A stretch of DNA of 21,319 bases from a virus: positions 1 to 21,319 of the IMG/VR virus record IMGVR_UViG_3300009071_000093; one strand, given 5' to 3'. The notes under the pieces are model-generated. The model searched no databases. It saw nothing but the letters and a program-made list of their open reading frames with translations, and had not been told where the DNA came from. Both the position numbers and the translations under genes were made by a program. Shown piece by piece: positions 1-15,284 of the stretch (position 1 is the first letter of the stretch; each line of letters begins with the position of its first letter).

Positions 1-3000
1 ATATCAACAGATCAAGCAGCAATCTATAGAACAGATGCAGCTGCAGATGAAATCATTGATATTATCAATAACGGTTTAGACAATGTCGATACAATCGTTT
101 GGAGTGATCCAGCTTCTAACCTGGCATATTTCACACCAACAGATGCGACATATGATCCAGCCAGTGGTATTAGTGTTGTCACTGTTGCTAGTCACGGCTT
201 GACTACAGATGATTGGGTTATATTTGCTCCATATTCATTCACATTTACTTGTGATGTTGATGGTGATGCTACACAGCATTCATATCCAAGATCTACTGAT
301 GGAAACTTCAACACTCCAATGCAAGTTACTGCCGTAACCCAAGATACGTTCACTGTGAATGTCGGAACAAGTGCTCCAAGTGTCCATACATTTATATCTG
401 CTGCACCTAATGCTGTGATTCATACTTCTCAACAGTCTCAAGGTTATCACGCTAGAATCAATCTGCAGGCTAATAAAACATTCTTGCAACAAGATGTTGT
501 ATCTTATCTTAATGCAAATTATTTCACATTCGATGGTGATAAGTGCTCTCGTGATACTGGATTCATTCTTGATGCAGTCAAGAGGGATATCGCTACCGGA
601 TCAAATTATCATTCGGTATATACTGGATTGGCTTATCGTTCAGGTACTCTTGGTGCTCAGGTAGTAATTACTGAACAGCTCAATGAAACAATCGGTGCTG
701 TCAATTATATTCGTGACGAGATTGCTGTTGGGTTGACCGGTGCAGAACTTACTCGATCAAATGCAGCATTCAATGAAATTACTGATATCTTGGCAAACGG
801 TCTCGGTTCTGCTGATCCATATAACTTCGGTACAAATTCAGCAAGTGCTGCCACGCTAGACGCCAGAACAATCTTGCAGTTGAACAGAACATTCATGATC
901 GCAGAAGCAACTGCTTATGTTGCTGCTAATTATCCAGATCTAGAATATGATGTTGCTAAATGCGAGAGAGATACTGGATTCATTATTGATGCAGCTTCAT
1001 GGGATATTCAACACGGATCAAATGTTGCCTCTGCAAATAATGCTAAATTCTATTTCGAACATGCTGTTGCTACATTAGGAGCTGATGAGGTCATTCCTAC
1101 TGCAGATACATTTGAACATATTGCTGAGGTTGCGTTCAAGATCGTCAGAGATCAAGCTGTAATTCCTACTGCTGGTAATGCTGAGACCCAAGATCTGTCT
1201 CAAAGTGATATCGGCCTTCTTACTGCAAGCAAGGTTCGTAATCTGATAAACATCACTGCTACGGCTATTAAAGACTCTAGAGCTCTTCTGGTGCCAGAGT
1301 TCGTAGAACCAGTCGTAGAGTCTGGTTACTCCAGTGCAGTAGTATGGATCAATGGTCAGAGAACTCGACTCCAAGACGATGTCATTGATGAATATCTCAT
1401 ACCAACCTTCAACGGACTACCATATAACCAGGCTAAATGTTTCAGAGACGTTGGTTATATCTTAGATGCCGTTTCTAAAGATATCGAATACGGCGGTAAT
1501 GCATCAACCCTTGAGGCAATTCAATATTATTTTGAAGGTGCCTATGGTGTTTCATTAGATGATGGAACTGGTATTATCAATCAGGTTAATATCTTACCAT
1601 TAGAACAGAGAGAGCCAACAAAACTTGCATTCCAACATCTCGCTGATGCTTCACAACAAGTTGTAAGAAATGTCGTGGTTACTCCACAATCAGGCAATGC
1701 TGAGGCTCAGAACACTTCTGGAACAGCAGTAACAGTCGCTACAGCTGATTCTCTACACGACCTCGTGGAAACCATTGCAATCACAATGGATCAACTAGAG
1801 AATCCGGTATTACCAACCCTCGTATCTCCTGTTGCTGATCCTAATCAGACCATGGCAAGACAGAATCTGCAACTGAATAAAGCATTCGTTCAGCAAGAAG
1901 TGATTGGTTACTTGGATGATAGGTATTTCACATATAACAATACAAGTTGTTCTGGTGATACTGGAACATTGATGGATGCCGTAAAGAGAGATGTTCTGAC
2001 TGGGTCGAACTTCAATTCAATATTCAACGGTCTGGCATACAGGGCAGGAACAGTATCAACTGATCTGGTGATTGCTGAACAGTTAGAAGAAACCATCGGC
2101 GCAATCAATTACATCAAACAGAATACAGCAAGAAAAGTTTCTGGTGCTAATGCCAAGTCTCGTGTAGAGCAAGGGTTCAACGAAATCGTTGATATCATGA
2201 TCTATGGTCAGCCTGCTGCTGACACTATTGTTTGGGGTGATGGTGCTCTATCCGGCGGACATATTATTGCAAGAGAACAAATTCAAAGTAACAGAGAATT
2301 TTTGCAGAAAGAAGTATCATCATTCTTGAATGAAAAGTATTACACATATGATGATAATACATGCGAGAGAGATGTTGGCTACATTGTAGACGCTGTAGAA
2401 TTAGACTTGCTCCTTGGCACTAATTACAATTCTGTCCTTGCTGGTCGAGCATATCGATCACCGATTGCTGCTTCTACAATTACTGATGAACAGCCACAAA
2501 CAATTGCTGCTTTCAATAATCTCAAAACAGAGATAGCTGCAATAGTATCAGATGGTCCTTCTCTTACAAGAGTAAATGCATCTATAGATGAAATCAATGA
2601 TATCATCGCCAACGATACGGCCGATCCTCTTGTATGGACAGATCCAGGCGTTGACACCAATAGAAGATATGCCAGAGAACAATTACAGTTAAACCGAGAC
2701 TTTATCATTGCAGAAACCATTGCATGGATTGATGAATTTTTGCCAGAATATGATACTGTGAAATGTGCTAGAGACATTGGTAATATTCTTGATGCTGTAC
2801 GTAGAGATTTAATTTTAGGTACAGATCATAACACTATTACTGCTGGTGATGCATATCTCAGATCAAGTGCTGGTTTATCATATATTAATTCTCAGGGTCC
2901 ATACACGATCGCCGGTATAGAGTATGCCAGAGATCAAGTGAAGGCCTTGGTATCTACTCCAGATGCTCAGATTGATGCTTTGTTTGCAAGAGTTATCGAT

Positions 3001-6000
3001 GTCCTTAATGGATCGGTTACTGCTTATATCGCACCTTCATATCCTAACCATGCTGGTTCATACGACACTACTGAACGTTCAGATGCTAGAACAGCAATCC
3101 AAACTAATCGTGCTACGATTGTGGATGATATGCAAGACTGGATTGCACAACAATATCCAACTCATATCTACGACGTTGCTAAGTGCAAAAGAGATGCTGG
3201 TTATATCCTAGATGCGGTGACCCACGATATCTTATACGGTGGAAACAGTGCATCACATATCGCCGCGCTTGCGTACTTTGATGGTACAGAATCACAGTTA
3301 GGCCCGGATGAAGCAATTCCTACTGTTTCTGCATTCGGTTATCTGAAATCATTAATAAACGCAAACATTGCTACTGCTCCAGAACAAGATCGAGTTAAAA
3401 CTCTGATAGACATTGTCATTGATGTAATTAATGCAGGTTCTATATCAGGCATGCCTGCAGTCGTTGAACCGGATTTGACTGGTTTAGTTACTACAGATCA
3501 TGATCTCATAGTAACGAATCAAACGGCAATTGCTAATCAGACTCCTGTATTCATTAAAGCTAATTATCCTGTATATGATCAAGCCAAGTGCGAGAGAGAT
3601 ACTGGATTCATCATCGATGCTATATCACACGATGTACAGTATACCGGTAACAGAGCGACTTTGGCAAATGCTGGATTCTATTTTGTCAATGGTATAAACA
3701 CGCTACCATCTCTACAAAGAGTATCGACTAAAGCAGCATATCTTCGATTGGCTGAAGTAATGTCTCAGGTTGTCACAGAGACTCTGGTGACTGTATCATC
3801 TGGCAACGCCGAAGTACAAGACACGGCTGGACTTCCCGCAACTGCGACAGAGGCAACTACTGTTACAGAATTAGGAACAATTATTGCAAATGCTGTTGCT
3901 GCAGATACTCCGGCAAATCTTCCTGCTAGAGTTGAGCCTGATGTTACTTGGGTCGCAAACAATTACGTAACGTCTCGGAATACAATTGTAGGTGCTACCT
4001 CTTCATTGGCAGCTGCTACCACACTATTCTTGAATTCAGATTACGATAATGAAACTTGCACAAGAGATCTTGGCTATATCATCGATGCGGTACGCAGAGA
4101 TTTCCTTACTGGTTCTACCCATCATACAGTTACAGCAGCAAATGCATATTTAAGAAATGCTGGTGCTTATGTTGCTAGTAGTCAATCTGATAGGACTGCT
4201 CAGGTTGTAGCCTATGCTAGGGATCTTATTACAAATCTAACTCTCGTAACCTCTGACGCTTCTATTATTAGTCTATTCCAGACTGTAATTGATGTCTTAG
4301 AAGGAACGACTAGTACATTCGGAACCTCTACATATCCGACTACTGCCGGTTCATATCAAACTGCTCCTAGAATTGCTGCTAGCATTGGTATTCAGTCTAA
4401 TATTGCATCATTACAGTCAGATGTTAGTGATTATATTCAGGAAACTTATCCGAATGTTTACTACGATAATGCTAAATGTTCAAGAGATCTTGGCCACATC
4501 ATTGATGCAGTTCGAAGAGATTTGGTGCTCGGCACCAACCATAATTCGGTAACAGCAGCAAATGCATATTTAAGATCCACAAGTGGTTATCCTGCAAACG
4601 GTCAAAGCACTGCTACCATTGCAGCAGTTGAATTTGCAAGAGATAAGATCACGCGATTGCCAAGTGTAGAAAGCATTGGAGAAGTCAACGGTCTATTCGA
4701 AAGAGTAATCGATGTTCTAAATGGATCTGTCACGACATTCGAACCTTCGGTTTTCCCAACCACAGAAGGTGCATCTTATCAGGTAACACTTGATAGAGAA
4801 GAAGGTTCTGCTCGATTACAAGCTAACAAATTGACTTTCGCTAGTGAATTGACAGCTTGGATTGACACTCAGATAGCAGGGAATATTGCTCCATTCACAG
4901 ATACCTTTGTTTATGATGTTGCTAAGTGCGAAAGAGACACTGGCTTCATTATAGATGCATTGACTCATGACATTAAATACGGTGGTAATTCTTCATCTAG
5001 ATTGAGTGCAGAAGCTTACATCGAAGGAACTTCAATATTAACTCAACAGGCTGAATCGTCTGCTGCATTCTCACAGCTTAAGGCCATCATTGGTGGTTAC
5101 ACTACTGGATTAGATACTGGTATCATTACATCGGTACAGACTTTACTGGATATCATTATCGATGTCCTCGATGCTGGATCTATCAGTGGCATGCCTGCTC
5201 TTGTCGAAATCGACACTACTGGATTAGATGTAACAGAATATTCTCAGATCACTAATAGTCAAGCTTCAATTATAACAGATACTGTTACATATGTCAACAC
5301 TAATTATCCAACTTATGATGTTGCTGATTGTGAACGTGATGTAGGATTTATCCTCGATGGGGTTTCATTCGATATTAAATATGGTGGAAATACTGCATCT
5401 AGATTATCAGCCATTGCATATTTCGATGCAAACGTAAGTCAATTAGGTGACGCAGATGAGGTTACTGCATCTATCGGTGCATATACACAACTTAAAACTC
5501 TTGTCGGTACTGTAATTACAAATACCATAGGAGCAACCGCTGCAGAGGTCACTCGAGCAGAAGAATTGATTGATATTATTATCGATGTTTTGACTGCTGG
5601 AAATCTCGACAGTTTAGAGGCCTTGGTTGAAGTTGATACCGCTGGTTACACTCTGACTGAATATGATGAAATCGTAAACAATCAAGCAACAGTAATCGCA
5701 GATTCTGTCACATGGGCAAATGAAAATGTGCCTAATGGTTTAGGTTACAATGCGGCTTCATGTGAAAGAGATGTAGGCTACTTGTTAGATTGTGTATCAT
5801 TCGATATTCAACACGGTGGTAATAGTGCTACTATTCAAGACGCTGAAATGTATTTCAAGAATGCATATACAACAAACGTATTGCCGGAATATCAAAAAAG
5901 AGCTTCAGTAAGAGCATTTAGTCATTTGGCTGAAGTAGTTCGACAAGTGGTAAATGCCGAAACAGTAACTCCCTCAACCGGTAACCCCATATCACAAGAT

Positions 6001-8457
6001 ATAGGGACTAGTGCTGGTGGTGCGATCGCGCAAGACGCAAAAGACCTGGTTAATATCACAACAAATGTGGTTGGAGAATCCAGTCTTGCTAATTTACCGG
6101 CTGAGATTGAACCAGATACTGCAGCTTATGATGCCGAATATGTCTCGGCATTTAATACAATCACAGAAGTCAAGCCTACCCTCCAGTCTGGTGTTATCAC
6201 TTATCTTTCTAGAGAGTGGAACGGCCTTGGATATGATCAGGCTAAGTGTATTAGAGATACTGGCTATATCATCGATGCTATCTCACACGATTTACAGTAC
6301 AAAGGTACTGCAGCAATATGGAACGCTTCTCAGATCTACTTCTCGAATGCTGTTAATACTTTACCTTATGAACAAAGAGAGCCCACTAAGAAGGCATTCT
6401 CTCATATGGCAGAAGTGATTGAACAGGTAGTCGAGTTGCAGACAGTTGTTCCTTCGCCTGGTAATACTGTTGCTCAGATCACTACTGGTATCGGAGCAAA
6501 TCCATTAACTGGTGATCGTGCTAAAGAACTTGGTATGTACATTGCCAATATCGTTGAGGATCCAGATGGTGATACAGTACCTCTGCGAGACGAGCCTGAT
6601 TACGATTGGGTTGCATCTAATTACACGACTGGTGTGACAAATATCGAGGCTTCGGCAGACACAATAGTCACAGGTGTAATTGATTATATTGCCAAGAACT
6701 GGAATGGTTTAAGTTACATCGAAGATAGTTGCAGAAGAGATATCGGATTCATCATCGATGCAGTATCACATGACGTGCAATACGGCGGTAATCGTGCAAC
6801 TAGAATCAATGCTCAGATTTATTTTGAAAACGCAATTAGTGTCCTTCCGGTATCAACGAGAAGACAAACCGCCGATACCTATGAATATCTGGGGTTGTTG
6901 GTAAGGAATATCATACAAAACAACGATACACAAGATCTGGCTTACACTTCAACCGCGCAAGATTTCTCTCAACCTGCTGCTACATCTGTTGATGGTGCTA
7001 GAGCTCAAGATCTTGTACAAATTATTGAAAGTGTAATTCGTCAAGATGATATCAGTGTGTTGGCATCACAAGAAGAGCCAGACCTCAGTTGGATTGATTC
7101 GTCATTGGTTACTCTTGGTACTACTATCGATGAAAGCACGACAACTCTTGCTGATAGTATGATTGAATTTATTAGATCAGAATTTGATGTTCTTGATTAT
7201 AATAGGGCTAAGTGCTACAGAGACGTCCAATATTTGTTGGATGGATTCAGCTGGGATCTTAACTATGATAGTAATCTTGCGTCTCGATGGAACGCAGAAT
7301 TCTATTTCTGGAATAATACCTTAAGACTCCCAGAAGATCAACGCATACCTACTGGTAAATCGTACAGAGAATTGGGTAATATATGTGCGTCTGTCCTTCA
7401 AGGTGAGCTGACTGGCCAGGTTATCAATAGTGGATTCCCTTCAGAAGTAGAAGTTGAGAAGGTCAAGTCTCTAGCAAATATATATTATCTGACTTTGACG
7501 AATAATTCTACGAAGTATCTTCCTGTTCGTCAAGATCCTAGCTTGGATTGGGTCAATATTCGATATCAAGATGCTAAGAATACAATTGAATCATTAAAGA
7601 TTGGTCTTGCATTTGATACTGTAAGATTTGTTGGGGCCACCTATAAGTTTGTAGATGAATATCTGACCCGAAGAGACGCTGGTAATTTACTACAATCAGT
7701 AAGAAATGACTTCGAGTTCAAGAATACTGCAACAGGTGTAGGAGGTTCTTCTAAGGCCACATTAACCTATACTGCTGCGTTCTTTGATTATAAGGGCGAA
7801 TTGGTATTTCCTACCTTTAACCCATCAATACAAGGTTTAAGGTACAAGGGTAGTGTAGCTGCAATTGCTGATTTACCTACCACCGGCCAGAAGCCATATT
7901 GGTCATATATTGTAACGCCAACGACTGGTGATTTCCTCACTAATATCTGGGCAGGTACTGTATATTATTGGGATGGTCTTAGCTGGGTAAATGCAGGCAC
8001 TAATAATACCGATCTACTCGATGCTTTCGTAGGATGTTGGGAGAGAATTAAGACAAACCTTATTAATAACTATTCACCAGATAGTCCTCACGACTTGATG
8101 ATAGAGGGCTTGATAGGAGATTGTGTAATTGGTAATGTACTCAAACCTTCTACATTGGTATTCGGTGCGTTGGTGGAATCCATTGCTCACCAGTTCAACG
8201 GTGCATCGGCAGGTGTTAACAGAAACGCATTGCCTCTGAACTTTAGGAACTTGGGTAGTGCAATCTCGGCATTGGCATCGGTCCAATACGAGGACGGAGG
8301 CCGAATTCGATGGTCGGGTTCTGACGAATTGAATAACCAGTATTTTGCCCGAGGATTGAGAATTAATGGTCGAACTGGACGAATTGAAGGAAGACCATTC
8401 ACATCATCAGTAAGAAAACTTGCCAGACGTGCTTCTCAGAGTAGAGCAATCGTCTAA
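1..8457 (+). CDS. Giant repeat-containing virion structural protein (5' truncated)
   Basis: The frame is open from base 1 to the TAA at 8455-8457, giving at least 2818 residues; the start lies left of the window. The protein is an array of 134-170 residue units. Each begins with a helix-like head (pattern AR..LQ.N..F), then a core such as YDxAKCxRDxGFIIDAVxxD with a following GGN or GTN, and ends in a helical tail (patterns DEINDIIAN or GNAEtQ). Sixteen units carry the Cys and a seventeenth has Thr there. A beta-type insert occupies about residues 42-144. The last 200 residues form a separate domain ending in a basic tail (RKLARR). I recognise this repeat style from large cyanophage and marine myovirus structural proteins of unassigned position. 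A structural, tail-associated role is inferred from the neighbouring fibre genes. There is no signal peptide or membrane segment to see. Homology is confident, exact function is not. Confidence 0.9.
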   Translation: MSTDQAAIYRTDAAADEIIDIINNGLDNVDTIVWSDPASNLAYFTPTDATYDPASGISVVTVASHGLTTDDWVIFAPYSFTFTCDVDGDATQHSYPRSTDGNFNTPMQVTAVTQDTFTVNVGTSAPSVHTFISAAPNAVIHTSQQSQGYHARINLQANKTFLQQDVVSYLNANYFTFDGDKCSRDTGFILDAVKRDIATGSNYHSVYTGLAYRSGTLGAQVVITEQLNETIGAVNYIRDEIAVGLTGAELTRSNAAFNEITDILANGLGSADPYNFGTNSASAATLDARTILQLNRTFMIAEATAYVAANYPDLEYDVAKCERDTGFIIDAASWDIQHGSNVASANNAKFYFEHAVATLGADEVIPTADTFEHIAEVAFKIVRDQAVIPTAGNAETQDLSQSDIGLLTASKVRNLINITATAIKDSRALLVPEFVEPVVESGYSSAVVWINGQRTRLQDDVIDEYLIPTFNGLPYNQAKCFRDVGYILDAVSKDIEYGGNASTLEAIQYYFEGAYGVSLDDGTGIINQVNILPLEQREPTKLAFQHLADASQQVVRNVVVTPQSGNAEAQNTSGTAVTVATADSLHDLVETIAITMDQLENPVLPTLVSPVADPNQTMARQNLQLNKAFVQQEVIGYLDDRYFTYNNTSCSGDTGTLMDAVKRDVLTGSNFNSIFNGLAYRAGTVSTDLVIAEQLEETIGAINYIKQNTARKVSGANAKSRVEQGFNEIVDIMIYGQPAADTIVWGDGALSGGHIIAREQIQSNREFLQKEVSSFLNEKYYTYDDNTCERDVGYIVDAVELDLLLGTNYNSVLAGRAYRSPIAASTITDEQPQTIAAFNNLKTEIAAIVSDGPSLTRVNASIDEINDIIANDTADPLVWTDPGVDTNRRYAREQLQLNRDFIIAETIAWIDEFLPEYDTVKCARDIGNILDAVRRDLILGTDHNTITAGDAYLRSSAGLSYINSQGPYTIAGIEYARDQVKALVSTPDAQIDALFARVIDVLNGSVTAYIAPSYPNHAGSYDTTERSDARTAIQTNRATIVDDMQDWIAQQYPTHIYDVAKCKRDAGYILDAVTHDILYGGNSASHIAALAYFDGTESQLGPDEAIPTVSAFGYLKSLINANIATAPEQDRVKTLIDIVIDVINAGSISGMPAVVEPDLTGLVTTDHDLIVTNQTAIANQTPVFIKANYPVYDQAKCERDTGFIIDAISHDVQYTGNRATLANAGFYFVNGINTLPSLQRVSTKAAYLRLAEVMSQVVTETLVTVSSGNAEVQDTAGLPATATEATTVTELGTIIANAVAADTPANLPARVEPDVTWVANNYVTSRNTIVGATSSLAAATTLFLNSDYDNETCTRDLGYIIDAVRRDFLTGSTHHTVTAANAYLRNAGAYVASSQSDRTAQVVAYARDLITNLTLVTSDASIISLFQTVIDVLEGTTSTFGTSTYPTTAGSYQTAPRIAASIGIQSNIASLQSDVSDYIQETYPNVYYDNAKCSRDLGHIIDAVRRDLVLGTNHNSVTAANAYLRSTSGYPANGQSTATIAAVEFARDKITRLPSVESIGEVNGLFERVIDVLNGSVTTFEPSVFPTTEGASYQVTLDREEGSARLQANKLTFASELTAWIDTQIAGNIAPFTDTFVYDVAKCERDTGFIIDALTHDIKYGGNSSSRLSAEAYIEGTSILTQQAESSAAFSQLKAIIGGYTTGLDTGIITSVQTLLDIIIDVLDAGSISGMPALVEIDTTGLDVTEYSQITNSQASIITDTVTYVNTNYPTYDVADCERDVGFILDGVSFDIKYGGNTASRLSAIAYFDANVSQLGDADEVTASIGAYTQLKTLVGTVITNTIGATAAEVTRAEELIDIIIDVLTAGNLDSLEALVEVDTAGYTLTEYDEIVNNQATVIADSVTWANENVPNGLGYNAASCERDVGYLLDCVSFDIQHGGNSATIQDAEMYFKNAYTTNVLPEYQKRASVRAFSHLAEVVRQVVNAETVTPSTGNPISQDIGTSAGGAIAQDAKDLVNITTNVVGESSLANLPAEIEPDTAAYDAEYVSAFNTITEVKPTLQSGVITYLSREWNGLGYDQAKCIRDTGYIIDAISHDLQYKGTAAIWNASQIYFSNAVNTLPYEQREPTKKAFSHMAEVIEQVVELQTVVPSPGNTVAQITTGIGANPLTGDRAKELGMYIANIVEDPDGDTVPLRDEPDYDWVASNYTTGVTNIEASADTIVTGVIDYIAKNWNGLSYIEDSCRRDIGFIIDAVSHDVQYGGNRATRINAQIYFENAISVLPVSTRRQTADTYEYLGLLVRNIIQNNDTQDLAYTSTAQDFSQPAATSVDGARAQDLVQIIESVIRQDDISVLASQEEPDLSWIDSSLVTLGTTIDESTTTLADSMIEFIRSEFDVLDYNRAKCYRDVQYLLDGFSWDLNYDSNLASRWNAEFYFWNNTLRLPEDQRIPTGKSYRELGNICASVLQGELTGQVINSGFPSEVEVEKVKSLANIYYLTLTNNSTKYLPVRQDPSLDWVNIRYQDAKNTIESLKIGLAFDTVRFVGATYKFVDEYLTRRDAGNLLQSVRNDFEFKNTATGVGGSSKATLTYTAAFFDYKGELVFPTFNPSIQGLRYKGSVAAIADLPTTGQKPYWSYIVTPTTGDFLTNIWAGTVYYWDGLSWVNAGTNNTDLLDAFVGCWERIKTNLINNYSPDSPHDLMIEGLIGDCVIGNVLKPSTLVFGALVESIAHQFNGASAGVNRNALPLNFRNLGSAISALASVQYEDGGRIRWSGSDELNNQYFARGLRINGRTGRIEGRPFTSSVRKLARRASQSRAIV
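124..432 (+). other. Beta-type domain inserted between two CxRD repeats
   Basis: About residues 42-144 of the truncated protein break the helical repeat pattern. The segment is rich in Thr, Val, Phe and Tyr, with alternating hydrophobic residues (SVVTVASHGL, FTFTCDVDGD, HSYPRSTD, TFTVNVGTSAP, HTFISA). It sits exactly between the WSDPA end of one repeat and the AR.NLQ.NK head of the next. I recall similar VxSHGL...HxYPRxTD...VNVG modules in cyanophage structural proteins. A small beta-sandwich protruding from the repeat rod is inferred. Confidence 0.6.
466..7720 (+). repeat. Array of 17 CxRD repeats within the giant structural gene
   Basis: The Cys codon of each unit starts at 544, 961, 1438, 1948, 2362, 2764, 3184, 3589, 4057, 4477, 4927, 5329, 5761, 6247, 6730 and 7213; the seventeenth unit has ACC (Thr) at 7666. 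Spacings are 402-510 bases (134-170 residues). Three subtypes can be read. Type A has GTN/GSN followed by an AYR or AYLR motif (units 1, 4, 5, 6, 9, 10). Type B is long, with a YF motif and usually GNxxxQ (2, 3, 8, 13-16). Type C is short, with GGNxxS and an IDIIIDV tail (7, 11, 12). Bases 1-123 are the tail of a further type A unit, so the array extends left of the window. Unit 4 has Gly in place of the Arg of CxRD. Confidence 0.9.
7830..8454 (+). other. C-terminal domain of the giant repeat protein
   Basis: After the degenerate last repeat comes a short beta module (KGSVAAIADLPTTG to YYWDGLSWVNAG, the latter at 7963-7998). It is followed by a compact segment with NALPLNFRNLG, DELNNQYFARGLRING and RTGRIEGRPF, and then a basic tail. 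The Gly/Arg-rich end looks far more conserved in style than the repeats and I have a memory of it in cyanophage homologues. It is a plausible anchoring or multimerisation end, which is inference. Confidence 0.5.
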
Positions 8458-8945: not shown

Positions 8946-11900
8946 ATGCCATCTAAGTACACCACGGTATCTGGTAAGGCCCGAACTTTAGGGCAAGGAA
9001 TACCACAAGCGTTTCCTATACAGTTAGATCCCGCTCCATTCGAAGGGGCCATTATCTATGCAGATGATGGTTCATTAAAGTATTCTGATGGCACCGCATG
9101 GTTAGACATCGGCGCAGGTTTCCAAGGTGTTCAAGGCACTCAAGGTATTCAAGGTGATCAGGGTACTCAAGGCGAATACGGCCCTGGTTTCACAATTATT
9201 GGTTCCGTACCAGATGTAGATGCAGGTGGCGATCCTCAAGCAACTCTCAATGCAGCATTTCCATCAGCAGTTGTTGGTGACGCAGTTATCGATGAAGCTG
9301 ATGATGAACTTTGGATATATGATGGTGTAAATTGGATCAATATTGGTTCATTCAGAGGTGTTCAAGGCTTCCAAGGTATTCAAGGTGTTCAGGGGCTTCA
9401 AGGAGAAATAGGACAAGAAGGTATTCAAGGTTCTAGAGGCTTCCGTGGTGACCAGGGTGTCCAAGGGATGCAAGGTGTCCAAGGTGTTCAGGGCAACTTG
9501 GGTATTCAAGGTATTCAAGGCGAAAGAGGGCCTCAGGGAGTTCAAGGAATACAGGGTGATCTCGGTATTCAGGGTACTCAAGGTATTCAAGGTCCACAGT
9601 CTATTCAAGGTCCACAAGGTACTGATGGCATTCAAGGTGTTCAGGGAAATCAAGGTTTCTTAGGCCCTCAGGGGATTCAAGGTAATCAGGGACCACAAGG
9701 TGTTCAGGGTGACCAAGGAATTCAGGGAAATCAGGGCGTACAGGGTAATCAGGGATTCCAAGGAACTCAGGGTAACCAAGGTGTGCAAGGACTTCAGGGC
9801 ATTCAAGGATTGCCTGGCGAAGAAGGGCTATCAGGAGGCATCACGTATGTCTTCAATTACGATACCGCTCAGAATGGAGGTTCTTCAGATCCCGGCCAAG
9901 GTAATTTTTACACAGATAGTGCTTCACTGGGTTTAGGTACAGGGTTCGTACTGACCATTGACAATTTCAGTGCAGTATTTGAAGCCTTATCAGTAAGTGT
10001 AGAACCGGTTCTTTCTGATATTGCTGCTAGAACAGAGACGATCAAAGGATATCTTATTCTTCGTCAGAGGTCGGATGATGCTCCAGATCAAGCATATACT
10101 TACGCACGGATTGAAGCTGCTGCAGATCAGACTGGTTATTACACTTTAAACTGTTTCCACGAATATGGCGAGACATCGTGGACATCAAACATTAGTAGTT
10201 ACGGCGATTTATTCGAGGTAACATTCGTATTTCCAGGCGAGACTGGTTCACAAGGTGTTCAAGGGATTCAAGGACTTCAGGGCATTCAAGGTGATCAGGG
10301 TACTCAAGGAATTCAGGGCGATCAGGGTACTCAAGGAATTCAGGGCGATCAGGGTACTCAAGGTATCCAAGGTGATCAAGGTGTCCAAGGGATACAGGGT
10401 GATCTAGGTATTCAAGGCACTCAAGGTATCCAAGGTGATGCTGGTGGTCAGGGTGTTCAAGGCATTCAAGGTGATCTCGGGCTTCAAGGTGAGCAGGGAC
10501 AATACGGCGGGCTTACCTTCGTATGGAATTATTCCTCACCAGAAGACTTTACTACCAGTGACCCAGGTACTTCGTCTTTCAAGTTTGATAATACATTTGT
10601 AGGAAGTATTACCAGACTTATCATTGACGACATTCCAGATGATCAATATACGACGCAAATCGACGATTTCTTAGACTATCTTGGAGCAATACCAGGTTCC
10701 ATAAAAGGTCACATCAAGGTATATGAAGACGCTGGTGGCACTGGCCCAAGTGGTCATCACTGGATTATTTTTGAATTCACCGATTGGACATGGAGTACTG
10801 ATGGTACTGGTAAAGATTGGGGTTACTTTGACGTTAATGTCATTGATCATAACCTGGGCACATCCGCTGGGGCTTGGCAAACGCAAGTTGTAAATCCTCA
10901 CGGACCAGAAGCATTTATCTCTTTCATTCCGGCAGGCCCAGCTGGGGTTGATGGTATTCAAGGTGCTCAAGGAATTCAAGGCGTTCAGGGCGATCAAGGT
11001 ATCCAAGGTATTCAGGGTGTCCAAGGCATCCAAGGTGATACAGGGATTCAGGGTACCATTGGCGAAGGCTTAGCTCCATTCACTTCCATCTATAAGTATG
11101 ATGATCAAAATAACGCTGCTGCTGATCCAGGCGCTACATTCTTCCGATTCGATGATGCTGTTTTATCTGGCACACCGATCATGTATATCGATGATCTTGA
11201 TAACGACTCGAATGATTCGATAGGTGCTATTCTCAATTACATGTCAGGACTGCCTTCGGCTCCTTATGGTAGTTTACTATTAAAAAATGTTAATCAAGCT
11301 ATTATTGGTTCAGGTGCTGGGACGCCGTCAGGCACGGCAGAGCAAGGGACCTGGCTTTTAATCAATAATATCACAGATAACGGTGGTTGGTGGACTCTAG
11401 AATTAGAATGGGAATCGGGTAATCTAAATGCGGCTAACCAAATAGCAACATATGGTGACGTGCACCAAATTACATTTATTCCTTCTTCACCTGGTATTCA
11501 AGGTGCTCAAGGTATTCAAGGCATCCAAGGTGATGAAGGTAATACCGGTGCAATCGGTCCTATGGGTGGTCTTGCGTTTGAATATAACTATTTAAATGCA
11601 GATACTGCGAATTCAGATCCAAGTTTTGGTAATTTGAAATTCAACAATACAGATTTAAGTTCTGCTAACGTATTATACATCGACGATCTGGATGTATACA
11701 ATCAGGTTTTCGATTCAATTATCCCATCATTAAATGCTGTTACTAATGTGCCCAAAGGCCATCTCACTATAACGAGTAAGGGCTTTAGAGGATATTATAC
11801 AACATTCGAATATACTGCATTCCAAGATAATACTGGTTGGTGGACAATTGCAGTAGACTATCAAAGTGGTGATACTAACTGGGCGGCAATTGTTGCTGCT

Positions 11901-14900
11901 GAAGGTAATGGAATATATCTGTCATTCCAACCAGCTGGTGATCAGGGTATTCAGGGCACTCAAGGCATCCAAGGTAACGATGGCTTCGGGGCTCAAGGTA
12001 TTCAGGGCATCCAAGGCGACCAAGGTACTCAAGGTATTCAAGGTGTTCAGGGTATCCAAGGTGAAGGCGGTAGTGAAGGTGCTCGTCAGTTTGAGGTAAC
12101 AAATAACGGTTCTTCAGATTATGTTATCGATGGTGTTGGTGGTAATCCAGATATTACTTTGCTCCGTGGATTCACGTATAGATTTAATGTAAATGCTTCA
12201 GGGCATCCTTTCTGGATCAAGACCGACCCAGGTACTGGTACTGGAGATCAATATAATAACGGTGTCACTAATAACGGTGAAGATGTTGGCATCGTTCAAT
12301 TTGTTGTCCCATCCGATGCTCCTTCTACATTATATTACCAGTGTCAATTCCATGGTTCAATGGTCGGAACGATCAACATCAGTGATACTGGGCCTGCAGG
12401 CGCTCAAGGTATCCAAGGTATTCAAGGGATTCAGGGTAACGATGGTGTAGGCGCACCCGGTGGATTCGGTGGTGTTACATTCGACTACACATTCGAAACA
12501 GCTACTACTCCAATGTCTTTGTTTGATGTCGGCAAGATTAGATTTAATAATACCAACGCATCTGCTTCTACTGAAATGTTCATCCACGAACGCGATGACT
12601 CAAATGTAAATATCGAAACTTACCTTCGTACGATTGCTGATTCTACAAGCACGATCAAGGGTCACTTTAAGATCACAGAGGTAAATGATGCAAGTCAATT
12701 TGTATTATTTACAATAGCTGCACTGGCAGAAAATGGTGCTGTATTTACTGTAGACTGTGCATACGTAAGTGGAACACTCGGTACAGGATCCTTTGCAAAT
12801 TCAGAAGATGTTATCATTACATTTGCAAGAACTGGTGATTCAGGTGATGAAGGTAGTCAAGGTACTCAAGGTATTCAGGGCATTCAGGGTATCCAAGGTG
12901 ATTTAGGTCTCCAAGGTGAAACTGGTGCTGGTACTCCAGGTTCTCAGGGCCCACAAGGTATTCAAGGTAACCAAGGTACTGCTGGTATTGGTACTCAAGG
13001 TATTCAGGGGATTCAAGGTATACAAGGCCGTGAAGGCTTCCAAGGTGAAGGTGGTTTCCAAGGTGAGGCTGGCGCTGGTACCCAAGGTACCCAAGGCATT
13101 CAAGGTGACCAAGGTATTCAAGGCGAAGGCATCCAAGGACCTTCTGGAGCATATTACGGCATCAGGTTCGAGTATGATACCTCAACTACTGCTGGTGCAG
13201 GTGTTGGTCAATTCAGAACAAATAACAATACATTACAAGCTTCAACCACATTATATTTCTCTAAGCAAATGTATGATGGTTCTGGTTTTGTTGACAGTTA
13301 TCTTCTTTCTTGGGGCACTTCAAGCTCGACAGTCAAGGGTCATTTGATTGTTAAAGGTACTGATGATAATGCGACTTGGGACGCAGGCGAATTCTATGTT
13401 TTCCCTGTCACCGCTGTTGCAGATCAGTCCACATATATTGAAGTAACTGTAAATGCTGCGATAGATTTTGGTTCTCAGGGCTTCACAGATGCCGACGTTT
13501 GTTACGTTGAATTCTATAAGTCAGGTGATGGAACCATTGGTGCTCAAGGTGTTCAAGGTTTCCAAGGCTTTGATGGTCAAGCAGGTGCGCCCGGCGCTCA
13601 AGGCATTCAGGGTGTCCAAGGTGACCAAGGTGTTCAAGGGCCACAAGGATTCTCTGGTACTGCTGCACCTGGGCTACAAGGTATCCAAGGTATTCAAGGG
13701 ATTCAGGGTAACTTTGGACCTGCTGGTGTCGGACCTCAGGGTATTCAAGGGGTCCAAGGTATTCAAGGTGTTCAGGGCCAATTTGGTGCTGGTGGAACCG
13801 GTGCTCAAGGTATTCAAGGTATTCAGGGCATACAAGGGATCGCTGGCGGTGAAGGTCTTGACGGTAATCAAGGTGATCAAGGTATCCAAGGCAACCAAGG
13901 TATCCAAGGTGATTTCGGTATAGGTGGGGATGGCCCTCAGGGTGTTCAGGGTGTCCAAGGTATCCAAGGAAACCAAGGATTTTTTGGTGGAGATGGTGCA
14001 GCCGGCCCTCAAGGTTTCAGAGGATTCCAAGGTGGTGATGGATTTGAAGGCCCACCTGGTCCAACAGGTGATGATGGCCAAAGTATTCAGGGTGAAAGAG
14101 GTATTCAAGGCTACCGAGGATTCCAAGGGGAATCAGTCATTGGACCACCCGGCGTAGGTGCTCAAGGGCCAATTGGTACTCCAGGCGACCCAGGCCCACC
14201 CGGTATTCAAGGTATTCAGGGACCACAAGGTTTTGAAGGTTTGCCAGGCGGAGACGGTAGTCAGGGCTTCACGGGTAACCAAGGGTTCCCAGGTAATGCT
14301 GGACCACCAGGCCCACCCGGGGTAGACGGCAGCGAGGGCCCACCCGGTGGTGACGGTCCGCCCGGAACCATTGGTCCAGAAGGTCCACCCGGCCCAGAAG
14401 GCCCGAACGGCCCACCCGGTACTCTTGCTCCATTAGCTGCAATACCTATTCCGCTAATTAACACGCCGTTGCCGTTGACCGTATGGGATTCCACGGCTGC
14501 AAGCTTCTACTTCACTCCAGCTGGAATGAATTATAAGTCTGGAGGCAATACATTAACTGTTGATGGTGGTGTGCTGCAACTTACCGGTGGTACATATATC
14601 GATATGACCGGTCCCTTCTCAACACCACACGATTTGCATGGTACTTGGGACTTCTCGAACGCGACCACGGTTGACTTTACTGGTACTACTGTAACAGGAT
14701 TACCTACTGGTGGTAGTAGTTTCATCGATGCTACCAATAGTGTGACAAAGACTGCAGGAAACCTAACATTCTCCGGTGGTTCTATTATCTTAAATGATAG
14801 TGTGCCAATTGCATTCGGAACAGCTAATCCAATAACGGCTTTTGCAAGCGGTGGTGCAAATACCAAGCTTGATATTCAATCAACAAGTGGTGTGACAGGA

Positions 14901-15284
14901 ACAGCAGTACGCTTCCTCGATTCGGGTGGAACAGCTGAACTTAATATTGAATTTGATACTGGTAATGTTACTGCAACCGGTAGTATTAGATCAACATCTG
15001 ATAGTAGGATCAAGGAAAATATTATCACAGTTGACAATGCCTTAGAAAAGGTACTTAACCTTAGAGGTGTCTACTATAATAGAATATCTAATGAAGATAA
15101 GACTCGTGAAATTGGTGTGATCGCTCAGGAAGTACAGAAAGTATTGCCAGAAGTTGTAGGTGAATCCGACGAACTATTGAGTGTATCCTATGGAAACATG
15201 GCCGGACTGTTCATCGAATCTATAAAAGACCTAAAAGCAGAAATAGATATACTTAAGGCTGAAATTGCTGAACTGAAGAAATAA
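8946..15284 (+). CDS. Collagen-like tail fibre with S74 chaperone end, 2112 residues
   Basis: The ATG at 8946 has GAGG at 8935-8938. Residues 1-57 are an N-terminal piece with a [11 protein letters not shown] motif, perhaps the virion-attachment end. Collagen-like segments occupy about residues 58-81, 138-298, 431-522, 664-708, 850-875, 998-1046, 1149-1173, 1297-1402 and 1527-1825. Between them lie a WIYDG module (82-137), six related beta modules (299-430, 523-663, 709-849, 876-997, 1174-1296, 1403-1526) and a cupredoxin-like module (1047-1148). A beta-rich stem (1826-2017) leads to a peptidase-S74-type intramolecular chaperone with SDSRIKENI at 2018-2026 and a terminal coiled coil. Gly-X-Y segments and S74 ends both imply a homotrimeric fibre whose last 95 residues are removed after folding. 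Host recognition is the likely role. Receptor and position on the tail are unknown. Product class is confident. Confidence 0.93.
10293..10400 (+). repeat. 27-base tandem repeat (DQGTQGIQG unit)
   Basis: Units at 10293-10319 and 10320-10346 are identical at DNA level. The unit at 10347-10373 has a few changes near its end, and 10374-10400 is a more diverged fourth copy. Exact copies inside an otherwise codon-shuffled collagen region indicate a recent in-frame duplication by slippage or unequal recombination. Confidence 0.9.
12084..12389 (+). other. Cupredoxin-like module with type-1 copper ligand set
   Basis: Residues 1047-1148 of the collagen-like fibre differ from the other modules. They contain [17 protein letters not shown], then a [15 protein letters not shown] loop, then FVVPSDAP and [11 protein letters not shown]. 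His1087 (codon 12204), Cys1133 (12342), His1136 (12351) and Met1139 (12360) fall in the order His...Cys-x2-His-x2-Met used by type-1 copper proteins; the x2 spacing before Met is that of amicyanin. The fold assignment is by pattern; copper binding is inferred. I recall related modules in marine phage structural proteins. Confidence 0.7.
14997..15281 (+). other. Peptidase-S74-type intramolecular chaperone domain
   Basis: Residues 2018-2112 open with SDSRIKENI, matching the conserved S-D-x-R-x-K start at which S74 chaperones cut themselves off trimeric fibres and spikes. The segment [23 protein letters not shown] and the [16 protein letters not shown] stretch are the family's usual continuation, followed by a coiled coil ([17 protein letters not shown]). 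The conserved Ser2018 and Lys2023 are present, so autocleavage before Ser2018 is expected from the family. Confidence 0.9.

Follow-up and report, generated by a model that had tools for sequence, protein, structure and literature searches.

The window analysed here, the 21,319 nucleotides of IMG/VR virus record IMGVR_UViG_3300009071_000093, opens with a giant gene whose product is very probably a tail-fibre rod (a virion adhesin) in which domains homologous to phycobiliproteins stand in tandem. Each domain would comprise helices A to H without the X-Y hairpin. The single cysteine that recurs from unit to unit would be the counterpart of the bilin-attachment residue Cys84, kept as a set with the equivalents of Arg86 and Asp87, and the last unit, with threonine at this position, would close the array. 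The triad may have been retained for the chemistry of the crevice in which it lies. The likeliest ligand there would be a putative covalently bound bilin or another tetrapyrrole supplied by the host, a part of the explanation that we put forward tentatively. The finding brings the fold of phycobilisome pigment proteins, including the residues for pigment attachment, into the virions of abundant aquatic phages.

The ORF (Table 1) is truncated at its 5' end by the contig edge; its relatives L142 and L143, with 70-73% identity, are 4182 aa long and have 20 units. It matched PHROG 4527 ("short tail fiber") with an E-value of 5.9e-131, as well as PHROG 5342 and 701, and the PHROGs label for the family is short tail fiber / virion structural protein. 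The presence of the window protein itself in virions is predicted from this homology. On its 3' side we found a 145-aa ORF and then a collagen-like fibre (ORF 8946-15284) ending in a Peptidase_S74 intramolecular chaperone, followed by a small ORF whose family resembles tail-fibre assembly proteins and another structural protein. We consider it very likely that the array forms a rigid segment of a virion fibre.

The initial annotation described 17 diverged repeats, 16 of them with a cysteine at a spacing of 402-510 bases and the last one with threonine, and the translation of the ORF confirmed this description (134-170 aa between the motif cysteines of neighbouring units). The array had been assigned to 466-7720; its limits are rather ~409 and ~7965. 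The ORF has 21 cysteines in total; since 16 of them share the motif position, chance is excluded. The CxRD core reported for all 16 cysteine-bearing units was found in 15 of them, with unit 4 reading CSGD. Nor is the cysteine the sole invariant residue. Numbered from it, Asp+3 and Asp+14 are present in 17 of 17 window units and Arg+2 and Gly+5 in 16 of 17, while the residue about 30 positions past it is tyrosine in 16 units and phenylalanine in one. Histidines near the motif are variable, in the window units as well as in the family. A disulphide within a unit appears unlikely, because almost all units have one cysteine.

Table 1. The giant ORF of the window and the units of its array, with the residue at the motif position.
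Feature	Position in window	Strand	Motif residue (aa of ORF)	Codon of motif residue	Remarks
Giant tail-fibre/virion structural protein ORF	1..8457	+			2818 aa, 5' end missing; open frame and PHROG matches
Unit 1	409..825	+	Cys 182	544	Phycobiliprotein-fold unit
Unit 2	826..1302	+	Cys 321	961	
Unit 3	1303..1812	+	Cys 480	1438	
Unit 4	1813..2226	+	Cys 650	1948	CSGD, Arg lost
Unit 5	2227..2628	+	Cys 788	2362	
Unit 6	2629..3048	+	Cys 922	2764	Part of three-unit model
Unit 7	3049..3453	+	Cys 1062	3184	Best PF00502 match; modelled singly
Unit 8	3454..3921	+	Cys 1197	3589	Part of three-unit model
Unit 9	3922..4341	+	Cys 1353	4057	
Unit 10	4342..4791	+	Cys 1493	4477	
Unit 11	4792..5193	+	Cys 1643	4927	
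Unit 12	5194..5625	+	Cys 1777	5329	
Unit 13	5626..6111	+	Cys 1921	5761	Second Cys at aa 1931
Unit 14	6112..6594	+	Cys 2083	6247	
Unit 15	6595..7077	+	Cys 2244	6730	
Unit 16	7078..7530	+	Cys 2405	7213	
Unit 17, C-terminal cap	7531..7965	+	Thr 2556	7666	TRRD for CxRD

In an unbiased Pfam scan, the window ORF matched PF00502 (Phycobilisome) with an E-value of 6.5e-9. A six-frame search gave the best match in unit 7, at 27.7 bits compared to the curated (gathering) cut-off of 22.2, covering positions 29-153 of the 155 in the profile and 3070-3423 of the window. Among 14 control genomes the cut-off was exceeded in one, Synechococcus elongatus, which was the expected one. When 100 phage units were scanned singly, seven matched PF00502 at E<=0.01, and every other Pfam family matched at most one of them. 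A profile derived from phage units alone was also searched against the PDB sequences: 33 of its 35 matches were phycobiliproteins (best E-value 7.9e-5), aligned on Cys84. A comparison by hhalign of the phage units with cyanobacterial phycobiliproteins produced a probability of 92% with an E-value of 6.2e-7.

The predicted structures led to the same family. For unit 7, AlphaFold was run with a 100-row alignment of units from the window and from metagenomes and produced a model with pLDDT 94.7 and pTM 0.88. The best 50 listed Foldseek matches of this model in the PDB were phycobiliproteins or their relatives, and the best 50 listed by VIA-align were all phycobiliproteins, with Z 15.3-16.5 over ~124 residues, rmsd 1.6-3.0 A, and identity of 15-25%. 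Residue 1 of the model superposed on residue ~27 of the phycobiliprotein chain; the unit therefore corresponds to the globin-like body and lacks the X-Y hairpin at the N-terminus. Three consecutive units (around units 6-8), which the initial annotation had proposed to model, also gave a confident prediction (pLDDT 91.5, pTM 0.77). For the three-unit model, several matches run from chain residue 1 through 177, aligned with model residues ~55-268; the match to 1qgw_D has 140 residues at 2.5 A. Since such matches begin at chain residue 1 and take in part of the preceding unit, the end points of the ranges suggest that helices of the preceding unit may replace the absent hairpin.

We regard the phycobiliprotein fold and the homology of the units as nearly certain. 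A convergent helical bundle would account for the low identity to phycobiliproteins and for the modest HMMER matches of single units. However, the independent searches by sequence and by structure arrived at one family and aligned the same cysteine, the Z-score of 16 applies to the whole domain, and the deep profile of phage units was enriched for phycobiliproteins; we thus find convergence the least credible of the alternatives considered here. The literature search, with subscription papers mostly outside its reach, gave no description of phycobiliprotein-like domains in phage tails; Pfam or InterPro may already list such matches.

The subunits of phycocyanin, allophycocyanin, and phycoerythrin (PF00502) resemble the phage units in having the globin-like helices A to H, which span chain residues ~27-177, and their Cys84-Arg86-Asp87, Gly102, and Asn47 region match the units in place. 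On the other hand, phycobiliproteins possess their own X-Y hairpin as well as Arg93, Thr96, and Tyr97, whereas in the phage units the hairpin is missing and these residues are replaced. Sequence and predicted fold therefore make the units members of the phycobiliprotein superfamily, but not canonical phycobiliprotein subunits, since the hairpin and the interface residues are absent. Phycobiliproteins assemble into alpha-beta trimers, while the units stand in tandem in one giant virion chain, for which a bilin is only a candidate. The core-membrane linker ApcE (Foldseek match 4xxi) likewise has a phycobiliprotein domain inside a large structural polypeptide. It contains one such domain plus linker repeats, compared to 16-20 copies in the phage protein. 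Another matched protein, smURFP (PDB 6fzn), an engineered allophycocyanin alpha, is a single shortened phycobiliprotein domain; it was selected in the laboratory and binds biliverdin unaided, while the phage units are known from sequence and model. Direct homologues of the same giant-repeat type are the cyanophage proteins of PHROG 4527, 5342, 701, and 18802. The isolates of these families that were checked have 3-14 units per genome distributed over one to three genes, compared to 17 in the one chain of the window protein and 20 in its full-length relatives. The PHROGs entries give no domain identity.

The lone cysteine, Arg+2, and Asp+3 together correspond in structure to the bilin-attachment triad Cys84-Arg86-Asp87, an identity that the list of possible cysteine functions in the initial annotation had overlooked together with the fold. 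In phycobiliproteins the contacts to the bilin include Arg86 and Asp87, and subunit pairing involves Arg93 and Tyr97. Over 722 phage units we observed Arg86 in 93%, Asp87 in 98%, and the cysteine in 93%, the last figure being slightly inflated since one of the scans that supplied loci demanded that at least one unit match a consensus motif. The Gly102 equivalent was present in 74%. Arg93, Thr96, and Tyr97, all at 100% in the cyanobacterial comparison set, were found in 0%, 7%, and 19% of the phage units, respectively. Asp+3 accompanied the cysteine in 671 of 671 cysteine-bearing units. Among the 32 non-cap units that lack cysteine, 12% have Arg and 44% have Asp, compared to 96% and 100% of the cysteine-bearing units, and the changes at Ala+10 (77 to 66%) and Gly+18 (76 to 69%) were not significant; the units of one protein are not independent, so the significance of this co-loss is only indicative. 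Arg and Asp usually vanish with the cysteine while the fold residues persist, so the three residues act like a single functional set.

That the invariant cysteine has a job, as the initial annotation proposed, is supported by its retention in the 722 units and by the co-loss of Arg and Asp. The frequent loss from homologues that was named there as an argument against a specific role did not appear: loss amounts to only 7%, and more than a third of it is in terminal caps. The suggestion that the last unit is a cap also proved sound. All 19 units of the family with [TS][RY]RD are the last ones in their ORFs, and this form is the cap closing the array. Among isolates, the units of Syn9 and S-SM1 keep Cys and Asp and often lose Arg, and the Arg of the triad is frequently lost in cluster-B cyanophages.

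A search with the consensus unit matched 358 of 50,697 phage records; 357 of these isolate records are named Synechococcus, Prochlorococcus, or Cyanophage, and one is a "Marine virus". In the isolates the units occur in tail or virion proteins. For example, S-RSM4 has 14 units, S-PM2 has 12, and S-H9-1 has nine, spread over two or three giant genes. Searches of the genomes of Pelagibacter phage HTVC008M, P-SSM2, P-SSP7, and S-CREM2 detected no units. The gene SSM1_102 of S-SM1, which belongs to T4-GC969, has three units, and analysis of purified virions detected the T4-GC969 protein of this phage (PMC3037559). Two S-PM2 ORFs, 3338 and 3779 aa long, acquired early mutations during coevolution with Synechococcus (PMC9910659), and these lengths agree with the two unit-bearing genes of this phage. 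A role of the unit-bearing fibre in host contact is therefore plausible.

A restriction of the units to cyanophages is true of the isolates, but the metagenomic contigs do not clearly fit it. In some uncultured phages with the full triad, the capsid protein gp23 resembles that of jumbo phages of Sinorhizobium, Vibrio, Erwinia, or Pseudomonas, or that of Flavobacterium phages. The nearest large contig to the window, a 73% relative, has a clamp loader closest to Methylophilales phages, a sheath-like tail protein closest to Sinorhizobium phages, and a DNA polymerase closest to Synechococcus phages. The photosystem gene psbA was present in 2 of 18 unit-bearing contigs, most of which are fragments. 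Three jumbo-like or non-cyanophage-like T4-type contigs (L065, an IMG/VR contig of 363,943 bases, L012, and L046), whose gp23 is near that of Vibrio, Sinorhizobium, or Flavobacterium phages, also have 13-24 units, and those of their units that were read show the full triad. In L046, as well as in L055 and L030, some units follow one another at only 108-115 aa (324-345 bases) and are shorter than those of the window.

The units are candidate targets for the phage bilin genes cpeT, pebS, pcyA, and cpcV. The gene cpeT lies ~4 kb or less upstream of a giant unit gene in NC_013085 (S-RSM4), NC_006820 (S-PM2), MW117966 (S-H9-1), and four more cyanophages, and the interval often contains tRNAs and a 2OG-Fe(II) oxygenase gene. 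We rejected a functional operon of cpeT with the units: the proximity was seen in 7 of 14 cpeT-bearing genomes, which are related, while in the seven others cpeT is tens of kb from the unit gene. This pattern is conserved gene order in one lineage. The role of cpeT itself is stated to be unresolved (PMC3037559). Similarly, cpcV is not a general partner of the units, for S-CREM2 (OR473000) carries this S-type phycobilin lyase gene (gp109) immediately upstream of its virion genes in a genome without units. P-SSM2 has bilin reductase genes (PMC2984593), yet no units were found in it. As a separate observation, the fibre CDS of S-PM2 (NC_006820, 165928-177267) has sixteen tRNA genes in its annotation; these look like an annotation artefact, since ARAGORN finds none there.

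What the triad does in the fibre is a matter on which two explanations are about equally probable in our estimate. The homology, the fact that the triad is selectively retained and tends to be lost together, and the bilin-making hosts of the isolates all favour a ligand of the bilin kind. We keep it at the tentative level because the triad is also complete in phages that are not cyanophage-like, the host signals are mixed, and the bilin genes do not track the units. The same persistence of the triad in phages of possibly non-cyanobacterial hosts, and the same unreliable co-occurrence of bilin genes with units, would be expected of a spacer without pigment, in which Cys, Arg, and Asp form a packing and salt-bridge network together with the newly conserved Asp+9, Asp+14, and Tyr+30. 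Asp+14 and Tyr+30 are conserved like the triad, and they are not bilin residues of phycobiliproteins. However, a free cysteine is seldom kept at such a level for packing only, Arg and Asp disappear along with it while the fold residues remain, and the interface residues of phycobiliproteins were freely lost. Two further functions listed in the initial annotation fare much worse. One cysteine per unit in a multi-copy fibre would suit disulphides between chains that lock the fibre after lysis, but the position is that of the bilin crevice in phycobiliproteins and not an interface, and the co-conservation of Arg and Asp would be left unexplained; we hold this to be very improbable. Slightly lower still we rank a metal site of Cys with nearby Asp and His (DAVSHD). 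The invariable pairing of Cys with Asp+3 is consistent with it, but the histidine is not conserved and, Asp aside, a second set of invariant ligands is missing, so that the proposal found no support.

If we return to the bilin reading, its full form, in which lyases of the host or the phage would attach up to ~16-20 putative covalent linear tetrapyrroles to each chain inside the infected cell, seems rather unlikely to us, though less so than any of the remaining alternatives. Fibres charged in this manner would make the virion coloured and possibly light-sensing; the light-dependent adsorption of some phages would then be explained, and phage bilin genes would gain a second purpose. The adsorption of S-PM2 is light-dependent (Jia 2010, as cited in PMC7112961 and PMC9229316), P-HM2 adsorbs in light (PMC7112961), and the podovirus P-SSP7 adsorbs in the dark (PMC7112961, PMC9229316). 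S-PM2 and P-HM2 have unit-bearing tail proteins and P-SSP7 has none, so the units are a concrete candidate for what lies behind the light-dependent adsorption of cyanomyoviruses. A fibre that extends or binds only in light owing to a bilin on the triad could thus explain some of this adsorption. Still, the comparison includes only three phages and is confounded with phage family, the effect of light may reside in the host, and the bilin is itself putative; light sensing is in our judgement improbable, if less so than disulphides between chains.

Besides the array, the collagen-like fibre ORF of the window carries a 102-aa insert at 12081-12386 that contains GHPFWI and has the look of a type-1 copper (cupredoxin) site. 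A Pfam search of the insert returned no significant match, and its best match among the PDB sequences was Glr2806 in phycobilisome entries, with an E-value of 1.3e-4.
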